A DNA stretch of 27,988 nt from a virus, in IMG/VR virus record IMGVR_UViG_3300029998_000099, positions 1 to 27,988 of that record. One strand, 5' to 3'. The notes under the pieces are model-generated. The model was not told the DNA's origin and searched no databases. It worked only from the letters and a program-made list of their open reading frames with translations. The translations under genes were made by a program, and so were the position numbers. Positions 4,234 through 20,217 of the stretch are shown one piece after another (position 1 is the stretch's first letter; every line of letters begins with the position of its first letter).

Positions 4234-4833
4234 TTACTTCTTTTTACTTTGTTTCACCTCTTGATAATCCACCTCAACCCCTGCCATTTCAGCAAGTTCT
4301 TTATCTGTATATTTCGATAACCCTGAGTCGCTGATCTCTTTTGGTGCGGGTTGAGCATACTGCATGATATTTATTATCTTATCCACTATTGCCATTTTGT
4401 CCGCAATCTCAAATTTCACTCCGAATTTACCGAACTCAATTTTTTTAGCGGAAAGGCGCATTGCCTCGCTCCACTCTCCAGTTTTTTTTAACTCAGACAT
4501 ATCCTCGTTAAAATAGTCTGCAAGGGATACGTTGAACATATCGGCTAATCCGGTAACTACCGATTCCTTCGTTAAATTACGATAGGTAATCCGCTCTCTC
4601 TCTAATTGATTTACACGAGCTATAACATCGTTATTCTCTAATAGTAATAATGCCATGTTGTTAGCATCATCCGCATTAAGAGTAACTCCAAAAGCAGCGT
4701 TGTAGCTTTTTTCGATGCCATCACGAGAAACAATCATGCGACAGAATTGTTCACGAGAATCGTCGAGCATAACAGACTTTCGAGCAGGTTGTGTAATTCT
4801 CAATATTCCAAGTTCAGGAGTTTCTTCTGGCAT
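4234..4833 (-). CDS. terS: terminase small subunit
   Basis: 199 residues. Small terminases recognise the viral DNA and deliver it to TerL. The region REQFCRMIVSRDG...SYNAAFG (about 27-50) looks like the usual N-terminal helix-turn-helix, followed by NNDVIARVNQLERERITYRN and a helical oligomerisation region, as in Terminase_2-like proteins. The start at the ATG 4833-4831 is chosen because the frame upstream runs into the -7 promoter box at 4859-4852 and would need a TTG inside it. The first 14 codons repeat the peptide of the remnant at 5596-5555, but with different synonymous codons (see findings). Confidence 0.85.
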   Translation of the reverse strand: MPEETPELGILRITQPARKSVMLDDSREQFCRMIVSRDGIEKSYNAAFGVTLNADDANNMALLLLENNDVIARVNQLERERITYRNLTKESVVTGLADMFNVSLADYFNEDMSELKKTGEWSEAMRLSAKKIEFGKFGVKFEIADKMAIVDKIINIMQYAQPAPKEISDSGLSKYTDKELAEMAGVEVDYQEVKQSKKK

Positions 4834-4851
4834 ATCTATAATTTTATTGTG

Positions 4852-4859
4852 CAAATATA
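4852..4859 (-). promoter_or_regulatory. -7 promoter box in front of terS
   Basis: TATATTTG on the minus strand fits TAnnTTTG. It is 18 bp before the terS ATG and just after the HNH stop. It gives terS its own promoter, consistent with the HNH cassette bringing one along. Confidence 0.6.
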
Positions 4860-4880
4860 TACATTATTTTTTAATTTACT

Positions 4881-5408
4881 CTATAATTGCATTTTTAGTT
4901 CATTTTGGTAAGCGTTATGAGCTTCTAATTCTGTTGGAAAACGACCAAGATATTTACGTTTTCTATTTGTAGTTATGTAGGATTCCCAATTTCCATCTCT
5001 TTTAAAGAAGCTAACGCCAGTAAATTCTGAAGAGTATTTTTCTTTGTTCTTCTTGAAGCATATAGAATTATTTTCTCTCGATGTTACAACATGTAGATTC
5101 GATAATCTGTTATTGGTTTTATCCCCATCTATATGGTCGATTACTAATGTGTTTCCGTTTATTGTATGACCTAAAAATGCTATGGCAACTAACTGATGAA
5201 CTGACATAGTTCTTGCCGTTCCATTCTTTTTTATACTAAATATCCTATACCCAGACCTATTTGCAGACTTTAGAATACGGCTATTTACCTTTCTCATACA
5301 AAATCCATTAAGAGCCAATCTATCAACGCTCCTTACTCTTCCTAAATTGCTGACTTGGTAATAACCCTCATATTCAGGCACATCCTTCCAAATCTCTATT
5401 TCTTCCAT
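4881..5408 (-). CDS. NUMOD4-HNH-AP2 homing-type endonuclease
   Basis: 175 residues in three modules. NUMOD4 is at about 6-35 (IWKDVPEYEGYYQVSNLGRV). The HNH fold is at about 69-115, with His71, Asp91-His92 and Asn100/Asn104. An AP2-like DNA-binding repeat is at about 128-170 (SEFTGVSFF...YLGRFPTELEAHNAYQNEL). Such free-standing endonucleases cut relatives that lack the gene and spread by repair. It stands between a remnant of the terS start and the intact terS, behind a structured leader and its own promoter-like box. No intron is needed to explain it. Confidence 0.9.
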   Translation of the reverse strand: MEEIEIWKDVPEYEGYYQVSNLGRVRSVDRLALNGFCMRKVNSRILKSANRSGYRIFSIKKNGTARTMSVHQLVAIAFLGHTINGNTLVIDHIDGDKTNNRLSNLHVVTSRENNSICFKKNKEKYSSEFTGVSFFKRDGNWESYITTNRKRKYLGRFPTELEAHNAYQNELKMQL

Positions 5409-5420
5409 AATAAAAAAAAT

Positions 5421-5503
5421 AGTCCCAAATTTCAGTAGGAAATTGCTGCTTCCTGACTTACTCTAAGGGACTTATAAATTAGTTTTACATGCAGCAACAT
5501 GTA
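5421..5503 (-). ncRNA. kissing-loop leader RNA, copy 1 (minus strand)
   Basis: Read on the minus strand. P1 is TACATG (5503-5498) with CATGTA (5491-5486), and its loop holds A = TTGCTG (5497-5492). P2 is AGTCCC (5472-5467) with GGGACT (5426-5421). P3 is AGGAA (5454-5450, via its complement) with TTCCT (5441-5437), and its loop holds CAGCAA (5448-5443), complementary to A. A T-run follows P2, and the HNH ATG is 12 nt further on. The architecture is shared with three plus-strand copies but all helix sequences differ. Biological role is unknown; the T-run means terminator or attenuator activity is possible here. Confidence 0.75.
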
Positions 5504-5507
5504 TCTA

Positions 5508-5515
5508 CAAATATG
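5508..5515 (-). promoter_or_regulatory. -7-like box before leader copy 1
   Basis: CATATTTG on the minus strand is one base off TAnnTTTG. It ends 4 nt before P1 of the leader, close to the spacing in the other three copies, so the RNA would begin almost at P1. Confidence 0.5.
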
Positions 5516-5554
5516 GTTATTATTTTTATTCTTCGTAAACTAATTAACAATTAT

Positions 5555-5596
5555 TTAAGTAATTCGGAGTATGCCGAGTTCTGGTTCTTCGCTCAT
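5555..5596 (-). pseudogene. remnant of the original terS start
   Basis: An ATG at 5596-5594 overlaps the stop of the upstream gene (ATGA-type coupling) and opens a 13-codon frame, MSEEPELGILRIT, then TAA at 5557-5555. The intact small terminase starts MPEETPELGILRITQP. The shared nine residues are encoded by different codons at six places. The frame stops exactly where the peptide match ends, so this looks like the original 5' end of terS left behind when the HNH cassette entered after codon 13. Confidence 0.7.
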
Positions 5597-5859
5597 AATA
5601 ATTCAAAATAATGAGCAACAATAAATCCGTCATGTATTTGACATGTGCCAAGATACATTCTATTTGAATCAGCCATATCGCTACCCGTCATACATATTTC
5701 TATGTTTTTTACAACAGGCTCGTTATTAGGCTCTACAAGATACCATAAGCATACAGTTCCGAGCTGTTGCTGAATGCATAAAAATTCTGAATATGCAGGA
5801 ACTTCTATTTGCTGAATAGCATCTTTATAATCTAATTTATATTTCCATATCTGTTTCAT
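5593..5859 (-). CDS. DUF7352-like hypothetical protein
   Basis: 88 residues from the ATG at 5859, which overlaps the stop of the upstream nuclease gene as ATGA. Reading begins MKQIWKYKLDYKD, with conserved-looking IEVP, CLWYLVEP and YLGTCQI..FIVAHYFE, which matches my memory of the small DUF7352 family of phages. These are beta-rich proteins of unknown function. An outer in-frame ATG at 5877 would overlap the neighbour more and is less likely. Confidence 0.7.
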   Translation of the reverse strand: MKQIWKYKLDYKDAIQQIEVPAYSEFLCIQQQLGTVCLWYLVEPNNEPVVKNIEICMTGSDMADSNRMYLGTCQIHDGFIVAHYFELL

Positions 5860-6248
5860 AGTTCTGATATTAAACATCCATTTGTTAATATACAGTCAAT
5901 CTCTTCCTTAAACTGCTCTAAACTTCTTATCTCGCAAAATGCCCCACCTTGTTTTACCAATGCAGCACCAACTTCCAATTGCTCTTTTGATAATTTATCT
6001 TTATCTACCTTGAAATCAAACATATATAATCTACCAGCGTAATAAAATTCATAGTCTAACACCCCTTTAACTAATCCTACAGCCTTCAAAGTCGACATGA
6101 TTCTTAGTTTTACGTTTAACGGTATCACTCTCTCTAATATCAAAGGTAATCCATTAAAGTTTGCATGGAATAATCCTCGTAGTTCTGGGTGTTCATTATG
6201 GAGAAAAAGGTGCGATTGTGATTGAAGCTTTTCGTGACTTGCTGCCAT
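5856..6248 (-). CDS. VRR-NUC / PD-(D/E)XK-type nuclease
   Basis: 130 residues. The core KGVLDYEFYYAGRLYMFDFK (61-80) followed by LSKEQLEVGAALVKQGG has the order of VRR-NUC enzymes: Asp65, then Asp78-x-Lys80, then Gln90. The usual Glu of E-x-K is Asp here. Related phage enzymes cut branched DNA or act in packaging and recombination. It lies upstream of the terminase genes, where Holliday-junction-type nucleases are often found. Family call is good; the substrate is inferred. Confidence 0.7.
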   Translation of the reverse strand: MAASHEKLQSQSHLFLHNEHPELRGLFHANFNGLPLILERVIPLNVKLRIMSTLKAVGLVKGVLDYEFYYAGRLYMFDFKVDKDKLSKEQLEVGAALVKQGGAFCEIRSLEQFKEEIDCILTNGCLISEL

Positions 6249-6931: not shown

Positions 6932-7004
6932 AGCTTCCTGTCAGGATCGAACTGACGACAATATCATTACAAATGATAGGCTCTACCTGCTGAGCTAAAG
7001 AAGC
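6932..7004 (-). tRNA. tRNA-Thr (anticodon UGU)
   Basis: A complete 73-nt cloverleaf. The acceptor stem GCTTCTT/AGGAAGC pairs at all seven positions with one wobble. The D stem is GCTC/GAGC, the anticodon stem TATCA/TGATA has loop TTTGTAA, and the T arm is GTCAG-TTCGATC-CTGAC. The anticodon TGT is at 6971-6969 (+ strand ACA) and reads ACA codons, which are frequent in this AT-rich genome. The discriminator base is T and CCA is not encoded. Confidence 0.93.
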
Positions 7005-17742: not shown

Positions 17743-18297
17743 ATGAGGACAAGAAATTTAAAAGGCGGAGTATTATGGCAAAGATGGAAATTTATACCAG
17801 ATTATGAAGGGTATTATCGGTGTAGTTCTTTAGGCAGGGTTAGGAGCGTTGGCCGAGTAATTATAAGGTCGAATGGAGCTTCGCAAATAATACATGATCG
17901 AATTCTAAGCGGATGGGTGTCGACTGGTTATCCGATGGTTACTTTATGTATTGGAGGCACCCATAAGGCAATGCACATTCATCAATTAGTATCTATAACA
18001 TTTTTGGGACATAAGCAATGCAAGTTTGATTTTATCGTTGATCACAAAGACGGAAACAAGAAAAAGAACTACTTGTCGAATTTGCAGATTGTAACCAGTA
18101 GGGAAAATACTTCTGTTTGTTTTATTTCGGGAAGGGAAAACTATATGTCTCAATTCGTTGGTGTAACATGGGACAAAAGTAGAGATAAATGGATGGCTCA
18201 TATTAGAATAGGAAAATCAAGGAAAACAATTGGTAGATTCCTTACCGAAATAGAAGCCTCTAACGCATATCAAAATGAACTTTTAAAAATAAAATAA
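17743..18297 (+). CDS. NUMOD4-HNH-AP2 endonuclease
   Basis: 184 residues. NUMOD4 is at about 12-38 (WQRWKFIPDYEGYYRCSSLG). The HNH fold is at about 78-122, with His80, Asp100-His101, Asn109 and Asn113. AP2-like repeat at about 137-181. Shares a 34-bp identical stretch with the HNH gene at 19450, showing a recent common origin. Its stop overlaps the start of a broken gene. Confidence 0.88.
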   Translation: MRTRNLKGGVLWQRWKFIPDYEGYYRCSSLGRVRSVGRVIIRSNGASQIIHDRILSGWVSTGYPMVTLCIGGTHKAMHIHQLVSITFLGHKQCKFDFIVDHKDGNKKKNYLSNLQIVTSRENTSVCFISGRENYMSQFVGVTWDKSRDKWMAHIRIGKSRKTIGRFLTEIEASNAYQNELLKIK

Positions 18298-18509
18298 TGT
18301 CCTCATCTGTAAAATGGAAGCAAGAGCATCCTGTATAAGCAAAGATAAATCAAAAGAAGTACAACGATAAGCATTGGGGTAAAAAATCGAATGGTGAGGC
18401 TAATATAGAGTCAATAGTGGATAATTTACTATCTGGTAATATGTCAGTATTGGATGTAGAAGTGGCTTATGGTAAAATCAATAATTTAATAATCAAATCA
18501 ATAATTTAA
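18297..18509 (+). pseudogene. broken small gene with stop and tandem duplication
   Basis: From an ATG overlapping the HNH stop the frame reads MSSSVKWKQEHPV, then TAA at 18336-18338, then 56 more codons without stop (KKYNDKHWGKKSNGEA..., ending IIKSII). A perfect 20-bp tandem duplication at 18476-18515 shifts the end. With only one copy the frame would end ...LIIKSK and overlap the next start as ATGA. Both lesions suggest decay of a formerly coupled gene. Confidence 0.55.
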
Positions 18510-18515
18510 TAATCA
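18476..18515 (+). repeat. perfect 20-bp tandem duplication
   Basis: The unit AATCAATAATTTAATAATCA occurs at 18476-18495 and at 18496-18515, followed by a partial third copy (AATCA). It is of the kind made by slipped replication, and it lies at the end of the broken gene, directly before the ATG at 18523. Confidence 0.9.
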
Positions 18516-18522
18516 AATCAAA

Positions 18523-19308
18523 ATGAAACAAGAATTTAATATAAAAGTATCCATTGAGCAAATTGAAAATAAGATTGTGACGGAGTTTGAATGTTCTCCC
18601 AAAAAATATAAAGACGGGGATATTGTATTGGTAAATTGGGATTATGCACACGATGCGCCAGCTATATTAAAAGATTATAATATGGGGTCTTGTCATGTCG
18701 CAATAGCCACAGATAAGGATAATATACCCATATATAACCATAGCATAACAAATACAAATATAATCTGCTATGCCACTCCACACGAAAAACAACTCCTATT
18801 CGATGCCTTAGAAAAAGCAGGAAAACGATGGAATGCTGAAACATTGCAAATTGAAGATTTAAAAGTTGAGCCAAAGGTTGGGGATTACGTGAAACTGATC
18901 TACGGCGATGAGGAAGATTGCATATATTGTAGAATATTATCAATAAATAGCAAACAAATCGTATCTAAATCATCTTTCGCTCCTAAGGAGAACCGCTTAG
19001 ATTGTCGAAGTTTTTGCAACTATTCTACATATAGGATATTGACAGAAGCTCAATTCCAATCCGAAGTAAACTCTTTAGGTTTTGAATATGATTTTAAGAA
19101 TAATACGTTTAATGAGTTGAGATGGGAGCCGAAAGAAGGAGAAAGATGCTTCGAGCTGTCTATATTTTTAAATGAGCTTTGCGTAGTTGAAATTTTATAT
19201 GACTCAAGGTATCATAAAAAGTCATATGACGAAGGCAGGACGTTTAAAACCAGACTTGAATGCGAATCAGCAATTGAAAAAATAAAAGAAATATTAAAAA
19301 GCAAATAA
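18523..19308 (+). CDS. large hypothetical phage protein
   Basis: 261 residues. Three beta-rich segments are joined by helical parts: about 30-80 with GDIVLVNWDYAHDAPAIL, 115-160 with VGDYVKLIYGDEEDCIYCRI, and 205-250 with RWEPKEGERCFEL...FKTRLECESA. The motif ALEKAGKRWNAETLQIED (about 90-107) recurs in proteins I recall from Bacteroidetes elements. Function unknown; repeated SH3-like modules are a possibility. Confidence 0.65.
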   Translation: MKQEFNIKVSIEQIENKIVTEFECSPKKYKDGDIVLVNWDYAHDAPAILKDYNMGSCHVAIATDKDNIPIYNHSITNTNIICYATPHEKQLLFDALEKAGKRWNAETLQIEDLKVEPKVGDYVKLIYGDEEDCIYCRILSINSKQIVSKSSFAPKENRLDCRSFCNYSTYRILTEAQFQSEVNSLGFEYDFKNNTFNELRWEPKEGERCFELSIFLNELCVVEILYDSRYHKKSYDEGRTFKTRLECESAIEKIKEILKSK

Positions 19309-19334
19309 AACTTCGATATATCAAAATAATTCAC

Positions 19335-19342
19335 TATCTTTG
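19335..19342 (+). promoter_or_regulatory. -7 box TATCTTTG before leader copy 3
   Basis: Perfect TAnnTTTG, 9 nt before P1. TTCG at 19312-19315 has near-correct -33 spacing but one mismatch. Confidence 0.65.
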
Positions 19343-19351
19343 CATAATATA

Positions 19352-19438
19352 ATTACGGTCTGACACTTAGTAATTAACAATTTAAAGCCTCATTGCATGG
19401 ATATAGAAAGTCAGACCTCTATTGAAATCTTTGGGGCT
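19352..19438 (+). ncRNA. kissing-loop leader RNA, copy 3
   Basis: P1 ATTAC/GTAAT (19352-19356, 19370-19374), with loop A = GGTCTGAC (19357-19364). P2 AGCCTC/GGGGCT (19386-19391, 19433-19438, one G-U). P3 ATAGA/TCTAT (19403-19407, 19418-19422), with A' = GTCAGACC (19410-19417), perfectly complementary to A. The HNH start codon is 11 nt after P2. TCTTTGGGGCT before it is shared with copy 4. Confidence 0.82.
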
Positions 19439-19449
19439 ATTTTATTATT

Positions 19450-20217
19450 ATGAAACGAAACTTAGTAAAAGGTTATTTGTGGCAAAGGTGGAAGGATATA
19501 CCAGATTATGAAGGGTATTATCGGTGTAGTAGCTTAGGGAATGTTAAAAGCTTAAATAGAACTATAATTAGAAGCGACCTAAGGATAAGTAATATAAAAG
19601 AAAAAATACTTAAGCCAGCACTCACTAAAAAAGGGTATCTCATGGTCGTATTATGTGTCAATAGTAAAAATGTATCTCTTCAAATACAACAGTTAGTCGC
19701 AATTACCTTTCTTGGTCATATTAGCTGTGGAAACAAAGTAATAGTAGATCATAAAAATGGAAACAAGGTAAAGAATTATGTATCTAATCTTCAAACAGTA
19801 ACAAGCAGAGAAAATAATACAGTTTGTTTTAGAAAAAATAATGGAAAATACTCTTCTCAATATGTTGGTGTGTCATGGAATAACGGTCTTAATAAGTGGA
19901 TGTCTCAAATTTACGTAAACGGGAAACATAAATATCTTGGCTTATTTGATTCGGAACTTGAAGCTTCGGAATCCTATCAAAAAGCATTAGAGCACGTTAA
20001 GATTGGATGCCCTGAAAGTTATTTGGAATCAATATCCCATAAATCTTCATCTACATACGTAGGGGTTTCTTGGTATAGAAAATTAAACAAATGGAGATCA
20101 GCTATACGTATTGATGGTAAAAAGAAACATCTTGGATACTTTTATTCAGAATCTGAGGCATCATCTAAATATCAAAATGAATTATTAAAATTAAATCAAT
20201 TAAAATTAAACCAATAA
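19450..20217 (+). CDS. NUMOD4-HNH endonuclease with two AP2 repeats
   Basis: 255 residues. NUMOD4 is at about 11-37. The HNH fold is at about 78-122, with Asp100-His101, Asn109 and Asn113. The first His of the usual vHqLV is Gln80 (QIQQLVAITF), unlike the two HNH relatives in this window, so activity may be altered. Two AP2-like repeats follow at about 135-180 and 198-245. Its stop overlaps the ATPase start (TAATGG), so it is coupled to that gene. Confidence 0.88.
   Translation: MKRNLVKGYLWQRWKDIPDYEGYYRCSSLGNVKSLNRTIIRSDLRISNIKEKILKPALTKKGYLMVVLCVNSKNVSLQIQQLVAITFLGHISCGNKVIVDHKNGNKVKNYVSNLQTVTSRENNTVCFRKNNGKYSSQYVGVSWNNGLNKWMSQIYVNGKHKYLGLFDSELEASESYQKALEHVKIGCPESYLESISHKSSSTYVGVSWYRKLNKWRSAIRIDGKKKHLGYFYSESEASSKYQNELLKLNQLKLNQ

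Follow-up and report, generated by a model that had tools for sequence, protein, structure and literature searches.

On the usual view, homing endonucleases persist in essential genes inside introns or inteins, or else occupy the spaces between genes. The closest known relative of the arrangement described here is found in fungal mitochondria, where atp6 of Allomyces macrogynus, atp6, atp9, cox2 and nad3 of Glomus, atp9 of Rhizopus and cox2 of Mortierella carry an endonuclease together with a foreign C-terminus, as set out in the portions of PMC3630166 drawn on here. In the mitochondria of Tremella fuciformis, a mobile element likewise carries a partial homologue of its host gene and can replace it, although those elements are described as introns in mitochondrial DNA, unlike the ones below; the excerpted account (PMC7315562) speaks of N-terminal duplications, yet likens the duplicate to the exon that follows.

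The window, i.e. the whole stretch of 27,988 nucleotides analyzed here (IMG/VR virus record IMGVR_UViG_3300029998_000099), holds a comparable arrangement at terS, whose product was identified as the terminase small subunit (Pfam Terminase_2, E 3.9e-8). On the minus strand, the order is the 6248-5856 gene, the DUF7352 gene, a 13-codon frame, a leader, an HNH gene and terS (Table 1). The 13-codon frame reads ATGAGCGAAGAACC... from 5596, encodes the peptide MSEEPELGILRIT* and overlaps, as ATGA, the stop of the gene upstream. Within the stretch PELGILRIT, this remnant and the start of the intact terS agree in all nine residues, while six of the nine codons differ silently (20 of 27 bases identical). 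The sequence-only reading had proposed such a coupled frame, an intact terS from 4833 and a PELGILRIT shared by the two in different codons, and its peptide and codon comparison proved exact. The same junction recurs at 99.98-100% identity in three contigs, L001, L002 and L003, each with its own metagenome id, and is thus not an assembly accident. By score alone, the match between the two peptides (50 versus 48.5) lies only near the 99th percentile among unrelated pairs of flanks; the case for a split terS is made by the alignment of the two start codons, by the coupling and by the relatives. We consider it roughly 75% probable that a homing cassette entered terS and brought the end of a divergent terS with it, restoring the gene and leaving its native 13-codon start behind. 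It is directly observed that terS is split, that its ancestral form was uninterrupted, that its 5' tract has had a separate history, and that the same architecture recurs in further genes, at 5' as well as 3' ends. Near the packaging genes, the window also contains a tRNA gene (6932-7004, minus strand; Rfam).

Table 1. Features of the terS locus and of HNH leaders with two crossing stems (positions refer to the window unless another locus is named).
Feature	Position	Strand	Remarks
Displaced native terS 5' end	5555-5596	-	MSEEPELGILRIT then TAA at 5557-5555
HNH leader	5409-5554	-	between remnant and HNH gene
HNH endonuclease gene, 175 aa	4881-5408	-	NUMOD4-HNH_3-AP2
Promoter-like box TATATTTG	4852-4859	-	19 bases before rebuilt terS start codon
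terS, intact with rebuilt 5' end, 199 aa	4234-4833	-	starts MPEETPELGILRITQP
Putative foreign tract, terS codons 1 to ~29-36	4726-4833	-	from identity to L004
DUF7352 gene	5593-5859	-	directly upstream of remnant; ATGA overlaps at both ends
Gene coupled directly to terS in cassette-free relatives	5856-6248	-	
Crossing two-stem HNH leaders	5409-5504; 19300-19452; L004 2360-2462		
Crossing two-stem HNH leaders	L014, L017, L094, L101, L103, L105-L109, L114, L116, L121, L124, L172, L173, L175		

Relatives of terS were found in seven viral contigs and in none of 50,697 phage records or of the genome contigs. Three of the seven represent this phage (L001-L003); the others form two cassette-free lineages, L004/L005 (99.98% identical) and L090/L091 (identical). 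In both lineages terS is uninterrupted, starts TTATGAGCGAAGA... and is ATGA-coupled, its start codon overlapping the stop of the homologue of the 6248-5856 gene. An HNH gene was absent from the terS site in L004/L005 and L090/L091 (L004 has one elsewhere, ~1.5 kb upstream of that site), an optional presence at the same site that is a trait of free-standing HNH homing endonucleases. Because the cassette-free relatives possess a coupled, uninterrupted terS, the short frame is the old terS start. The prediction that cassette-free phages should have a gapless terS beginning at the 5596-type ATG was thus borne out, and both lineages support the earlier proposal of an insertion after codon 13 of a once-continuous gene. 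The DUF7352 gene is missing from all four cassette-free loci and was therefore either gained in the window lineage or lost in the relatives; in the window it sits seamlessly between two coupled genes. An intergenic sequence, CCCCTAAATCTCAAAAAA(A)TATCCG, is common to the three phages (window ~7712, L004 ~2994, L090 ~2865).

Comparing terS between window and L004 revealed a discontinuity: codons 1-36 are 66.7% identical and codons 37 to the end 85.4%, and a permutation test put the change point near codon 29 (p 0.002). For L004 versus L090, by contrast, the first tract is the more similar one (77.1% versus 71.6%), and the change point could partly reflect exchange between these two. The rebuilt start is one codon longer than the remnant and L004, as in L090, whereas the remnant has the L004 length. 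Given the reversal of identities around the change point and the extra codon of L090 type, the rebuilt start looks, from its sequence, like the end of a divergent terS homologue, about 29-36 codons long and with other residues. The sequence-only reading had spoken of a recoded 5' end; a history different from the rest of terS holds up, but the tract is not merely 13 respelled codons. In its bases, the remnant is hardly closer to L004 (31/39 matching) than the rebuilt start is (29/39), and two cassette-free lineages make a small basis for comparison. A donor terS was not found among phage records, viral contigs or genome contigs.

The interposed gene has the composition of a free-standing phage HNH homing endonuclease, HNH combined with NUMOD/AP2 modules: its product matched NUMOD4 (1.6e-16), HNH_3 (1.2e-13) and AP2 (1.9e-6, with a bit score under the Pfam cut-off), as well as the phrog_59 HNH endonuclease (7e-36). 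Ahead of the rebuilt terS start lies the box TATATTTG, which we take to be a Bacteroidota-type promoter-like motif. It had been read as a promoter from the letters; the box is present as described, but a promoter at 4852-4859 is unproven, as TANNTTTG is not above chance in the window (45 occurrences versus 42.3 expected).

Inspection of the HNH leader pointed to RNA structure. The segment 5504-5409 folds with a z of -3.0, and none of 200 shuffles was as stable. Two possible pseudoknot stems were recognized by eye, A (5497-5491 TTGCTGC with 5449-5443 GCAGCAA) and B (5472-5467 AGTCCC with 5426-5421 GGGACT). For this leader (HNH1), a pseudoknot search chose other stems (p 12/100), and because crossing stems are unremarkable in that shuffle search, the HNH1 leader rests on its own fold and on its likeness to the leaders of L004, HNH3 and others. 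Crossing stems in the order A-B-A'-B' precede the start codons of HNH1, HNH3, the L004 HNH gene and many further ones, mostly of Bacteroidota phages; the sequences are unrelated and the order is the same. L101 and L103 have the A stem in common, with the B stem wholly replaced on both sides. In the shuffle test, 16 of 86 HNH leaders reached p 0.01, compared with 10 of 258 leaders in front of other genes (Fisher 4e-5); among AT-rich leaders only, 12/68 did so versus 9/169 (p 0.004). The loci were hand-picked before counting. The 86 leaders took in four phage records; the search that gave p 12/100 for HNH1 started from 92 entries (4 by hand plus 88 of 159 loci), fewer of which yielded a leader after duplicates and short flanks. 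The window leaders matched no Rfam family. Since RNA hairpins limit the translation of T4 endonuclease genes, according to the sections of PMC2988022 used here, it would be a fair guess that the leader controls HNH expression. A like leader occurs at L174 700-838 (Cellulophaga phage phi19:1, before gp030), where the gene behind it is not annotated as HNH.

The relationship between a displaced and a rebuilt gene end is clearest in another target gene, that of L243 and, above all, L343/L344. In L243, the HNH gene continues in fusion from the native start MALTERTIIDKYEI, while the target begins anew with MALVKKTAIDKYEI at the HNH stop codon; the rebuilt start resembles the native one at 25 of 42 bases. 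We compared 18 of 23 loci with this target (L341, L342, L353, L361 and L363 were left out). Of these, 16 have a gene start that agrees with the fused native one in 34-40 of 42 bases, but with the rebuilt one in just 21-26. The two exceptions, L343 and L344, have an HNH gene at the same site, 47% identical to that of L243. Here again, the HNH gene is joined to the native start. The rebuilt start encodes nearly the same protein, silently recoded over only ~18 codons, beyond which the gene resembles any HNH-free relative. Silent differences per shared residue amount to 0.47 and 0.63 in the first and second ten codons (natives: 0.16 and 0.17), and to 0-0.17 after the first twenty codons (natives: 0-0.25). 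All 17 HNH-free relatives of L343/L344 keep the native spelling. The recoding excess was significant against each of them (Fisher p<0.01; 12 of the 17 loci are distinct, and the 17 tests are non-independent as they share one sequence), and was seen in 1 of 66 native-native pairs. Because this excess holds against the HNH-free relatives and is rare between natives, the recoding, as judged from these alleles, goes with the HNH gene in this target.

To place these cases in context, we took related loci and matched the peptides encoded on one side of the HNH gene against those on the other. From 319 loci plus 8 others, all hand-picked before counting, 266 were kept; apparent duplicates and loci with short flanks were dropped, and some were not entered. 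While most of the 266 lack any gene-end copy, five have a gene end copied in divergent form on the opposite side of the HNH gene (window, L156/L178, L184, L277, L243), the copy abutting the HNH gene in L156, L184 and L277, and two further loci have near-identical flanking copies (L143, L067). Chance pairs scored at least 45 in 9 of 798 cases, so flank scores alone are weak and relatives decide. The replaced end is the 3' end in L156 and L184, and the 5' end in the window, L277, L243 and L343, where replacement is N-terminal, unlike the C-terminal replacement of the fungal mitochondrial type. Two other traits of the fungal type recur: a divergent end forms a hybrid host gene in terS, L156 and L243, and the native end is displaced beyond the endonuclease ORF in the window and other loci. 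Several candidates were rejected on closer inspection. The apparent captured starts of L095 and others (MIAKTLSRLG) are the N-terminus of the HNH gene itself, with no copy downstream; high flank scores at L144, L066, L158, L252 and similar loci stemmed from low-complexity or out-of-frame matches; and L221, L331 and L236, left out of the count, were self-matches from wrongly set HNH bounds. In the window, a frame MSSSVKWKQEHPV* and further pieces 3' of the second HNH gene (18297-18520) resemble a broken gene.

In the Staphylococcus phage locus L156, an HNHc gene with a foreign 3' tract, whose last 20 bases overlap the HNH frame, is followed by the HNH gene and then by the native 3' end. Pel11 and SN13, found among the phage records, have an uninterrupted HNHc gene. 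Identity between L156 and Pel11 is 81% up to codon 180 and 57% beyond (change point: 0/2000 permutations), whereas Pel11 and SN13 are 78% identical in that last tract. In L277, a native start MKILVKRTFNN... is cut off, followed by the HNH gene and an intact gene starting MKVNVVRRYNN...; in L338, the two neighboring genes are adjacent, without HNH. L184 shows the 3'-end layout (foreign end, HNH gene, displaced native end), and cassette-free relatives of it were not found in viral contigs or phages. The copies in these three loci also differ in residues (16 of 24 the same in L156, 14 of 25 in L277 and 12 of 18 in L184), so a foreign end alone explains them, without selection for recoding. The HNH genes of L143 (2947-3510) and L067 (2309-2880) lie between near-identical direct copies, of a gene start (42/45 bases identical) and of a stop-start junction, respectively, which is perhaps the state before divergence.

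Such flanking copies demonstrate that duplication at insertion happens, and raise the question of whether the terS 5' end was duplicated within this lineage when the HNH gene entered, with the copies drifting silently and no donor involved. In line with this, remnant and rebuilt start both read PELGILRIT, whereas L004 and L090 both have EQGILRII. However, duplication of the remnant cannot give the foreign tract, which reaches 16-23 codons past it, and the relatives of L243 and L156 reveal the displaced copy to be native and the rebuilt copy not to be. We therefore regard a duplication as unlikely. That ordinary mosaic exchange between phages placed an HNH gene and a second terS beside a broken one, the endonuclease being a bystander, would be consistent with the gain or loss of DUF7352 next door and with HNH cleavage activity being only predicted from sequence; yet displaced and rebuilt ends abut the HNH gene in unrelated phages and genes, and the recoding in L343/L344 is confined to the insertion point, which makes a mere exchange improbable. 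A self-splicing intron between codon 13 of the remnant and terS codon 14, where the reading frame is joinable and the leader structured, was rejected, as Rfam found no conserved catalytic RNA core: neither a group I or group II intron nor another catalytic RNA in the window reached its gathering score, and none appeared within 4700-5650 even when E was relaxed to 5. Besides, terS is complete without splicing, and L156, L243 and L343 need none; we give splicing next to no credence.

In the homing-cassette reading that we prefer, an HNH homing-endonuclease gene with its own leader would have inserted behind codon 13 of terS. With it would have arrived the initial 29-36 codons of a divergent terS, so that terS downstream of the endonuclease became whole again, while the native 13-codon start was left behind, capped by a stop. 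The endonuclease presumably cuts terS near codon 13, and a donor may have served as the repair template for both the endonuclease gene and the terS end next to it; one side would then have been resolved by homologous exchange within terS, the other by non-homologous joining at the cut. A divergent or recoded spelling would escape cutting, and the cassette would thereby protect its own genome while rescuing an essential gene. On this reading, the carried gene end restores the protein and probably destroys the putative cut site, for which the silent recoding limited to ~18 codons at the insertion point of L343/L344 is an indirect argument. On the intact side, the tract past the insertion point (16-23 codons in terS, ~4 in L343) would fit a need to cover the recognition site, and would equally be what gene conversion leaves. 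Taking the loci together, we lean slightly towards the view that phage HNH genes repeatedly form natural home-and-rescue drives, entering near either end of an essential gene with a recoded, predicted-uncuttable copy of that end. The 5' version would also capture a start or supply a new one, as in L243 and L343, where the endonuclease appears to be translated from the start of its target, and the target to restart at the overlapping stop codon.

The fungal mitochondrial elements share the pattern of a free-standing endonuclease ORF that inserts into a gene together with a divergent end, giving a hybrid gene and a displaced native end, with DNA differences that can be nearly all synonymous. Those elements are mitochondrial, of LAGLIDADG or GIY-YIG type and, in the cited portions of PMC3630166, always at the 3' end, whereas the present ones reside in dsDNA phages, are of HNH type and affect both ends (the 5' end in the window). 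Our literature search, with most subscription journals outside it, found no phage or N-terminal counterpart, and no published counterpart of the HNH leader. In phage Aeh1 (mobE in nrdA) and T4 (mobA in gene 60), a free-standing HNH gene likewise splits an essential gene, but the target stays split into separate coding regions, while the present cassettes make good the lost end. Intronless homing with co-conversion in T-even phages similarly spreads the endonuclease gene together with its flanks and replaces recipient markers; there, however, hundreds to thousands of bases separate the cut sites from the endonuclease gene (both in the excerpts of PMC2988022 used here), whereas the present insertion seems to be at the target, with the native end left.

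A cassette with a spare gene end would constitute a third survival route in essential genes, one that would make the gene immune and functional in a single step. The L343 group renders this idea testable, since its alleles with and without the HNH gene are set apart by ~18 recoded codons in a defined place. Spare-end cassettes would also explain sudden chimeric gene ends in phages and represent a natural parallel to engineered rescue drives. In the home-and-rescue drive HomeR, a cutter is reportedly placed in an essential gene with a recoded, uncuttable replacement of that gene's end. The likeness lies in the combination of a cutter within an essential gene and a replacement of the gene's end; HomeR, as presented in the portions of PMC7968924 drawn on here, is an engineered Cas9 drive in flies, whereas the phage cassettes would be natural, with uncuttability predicted only.
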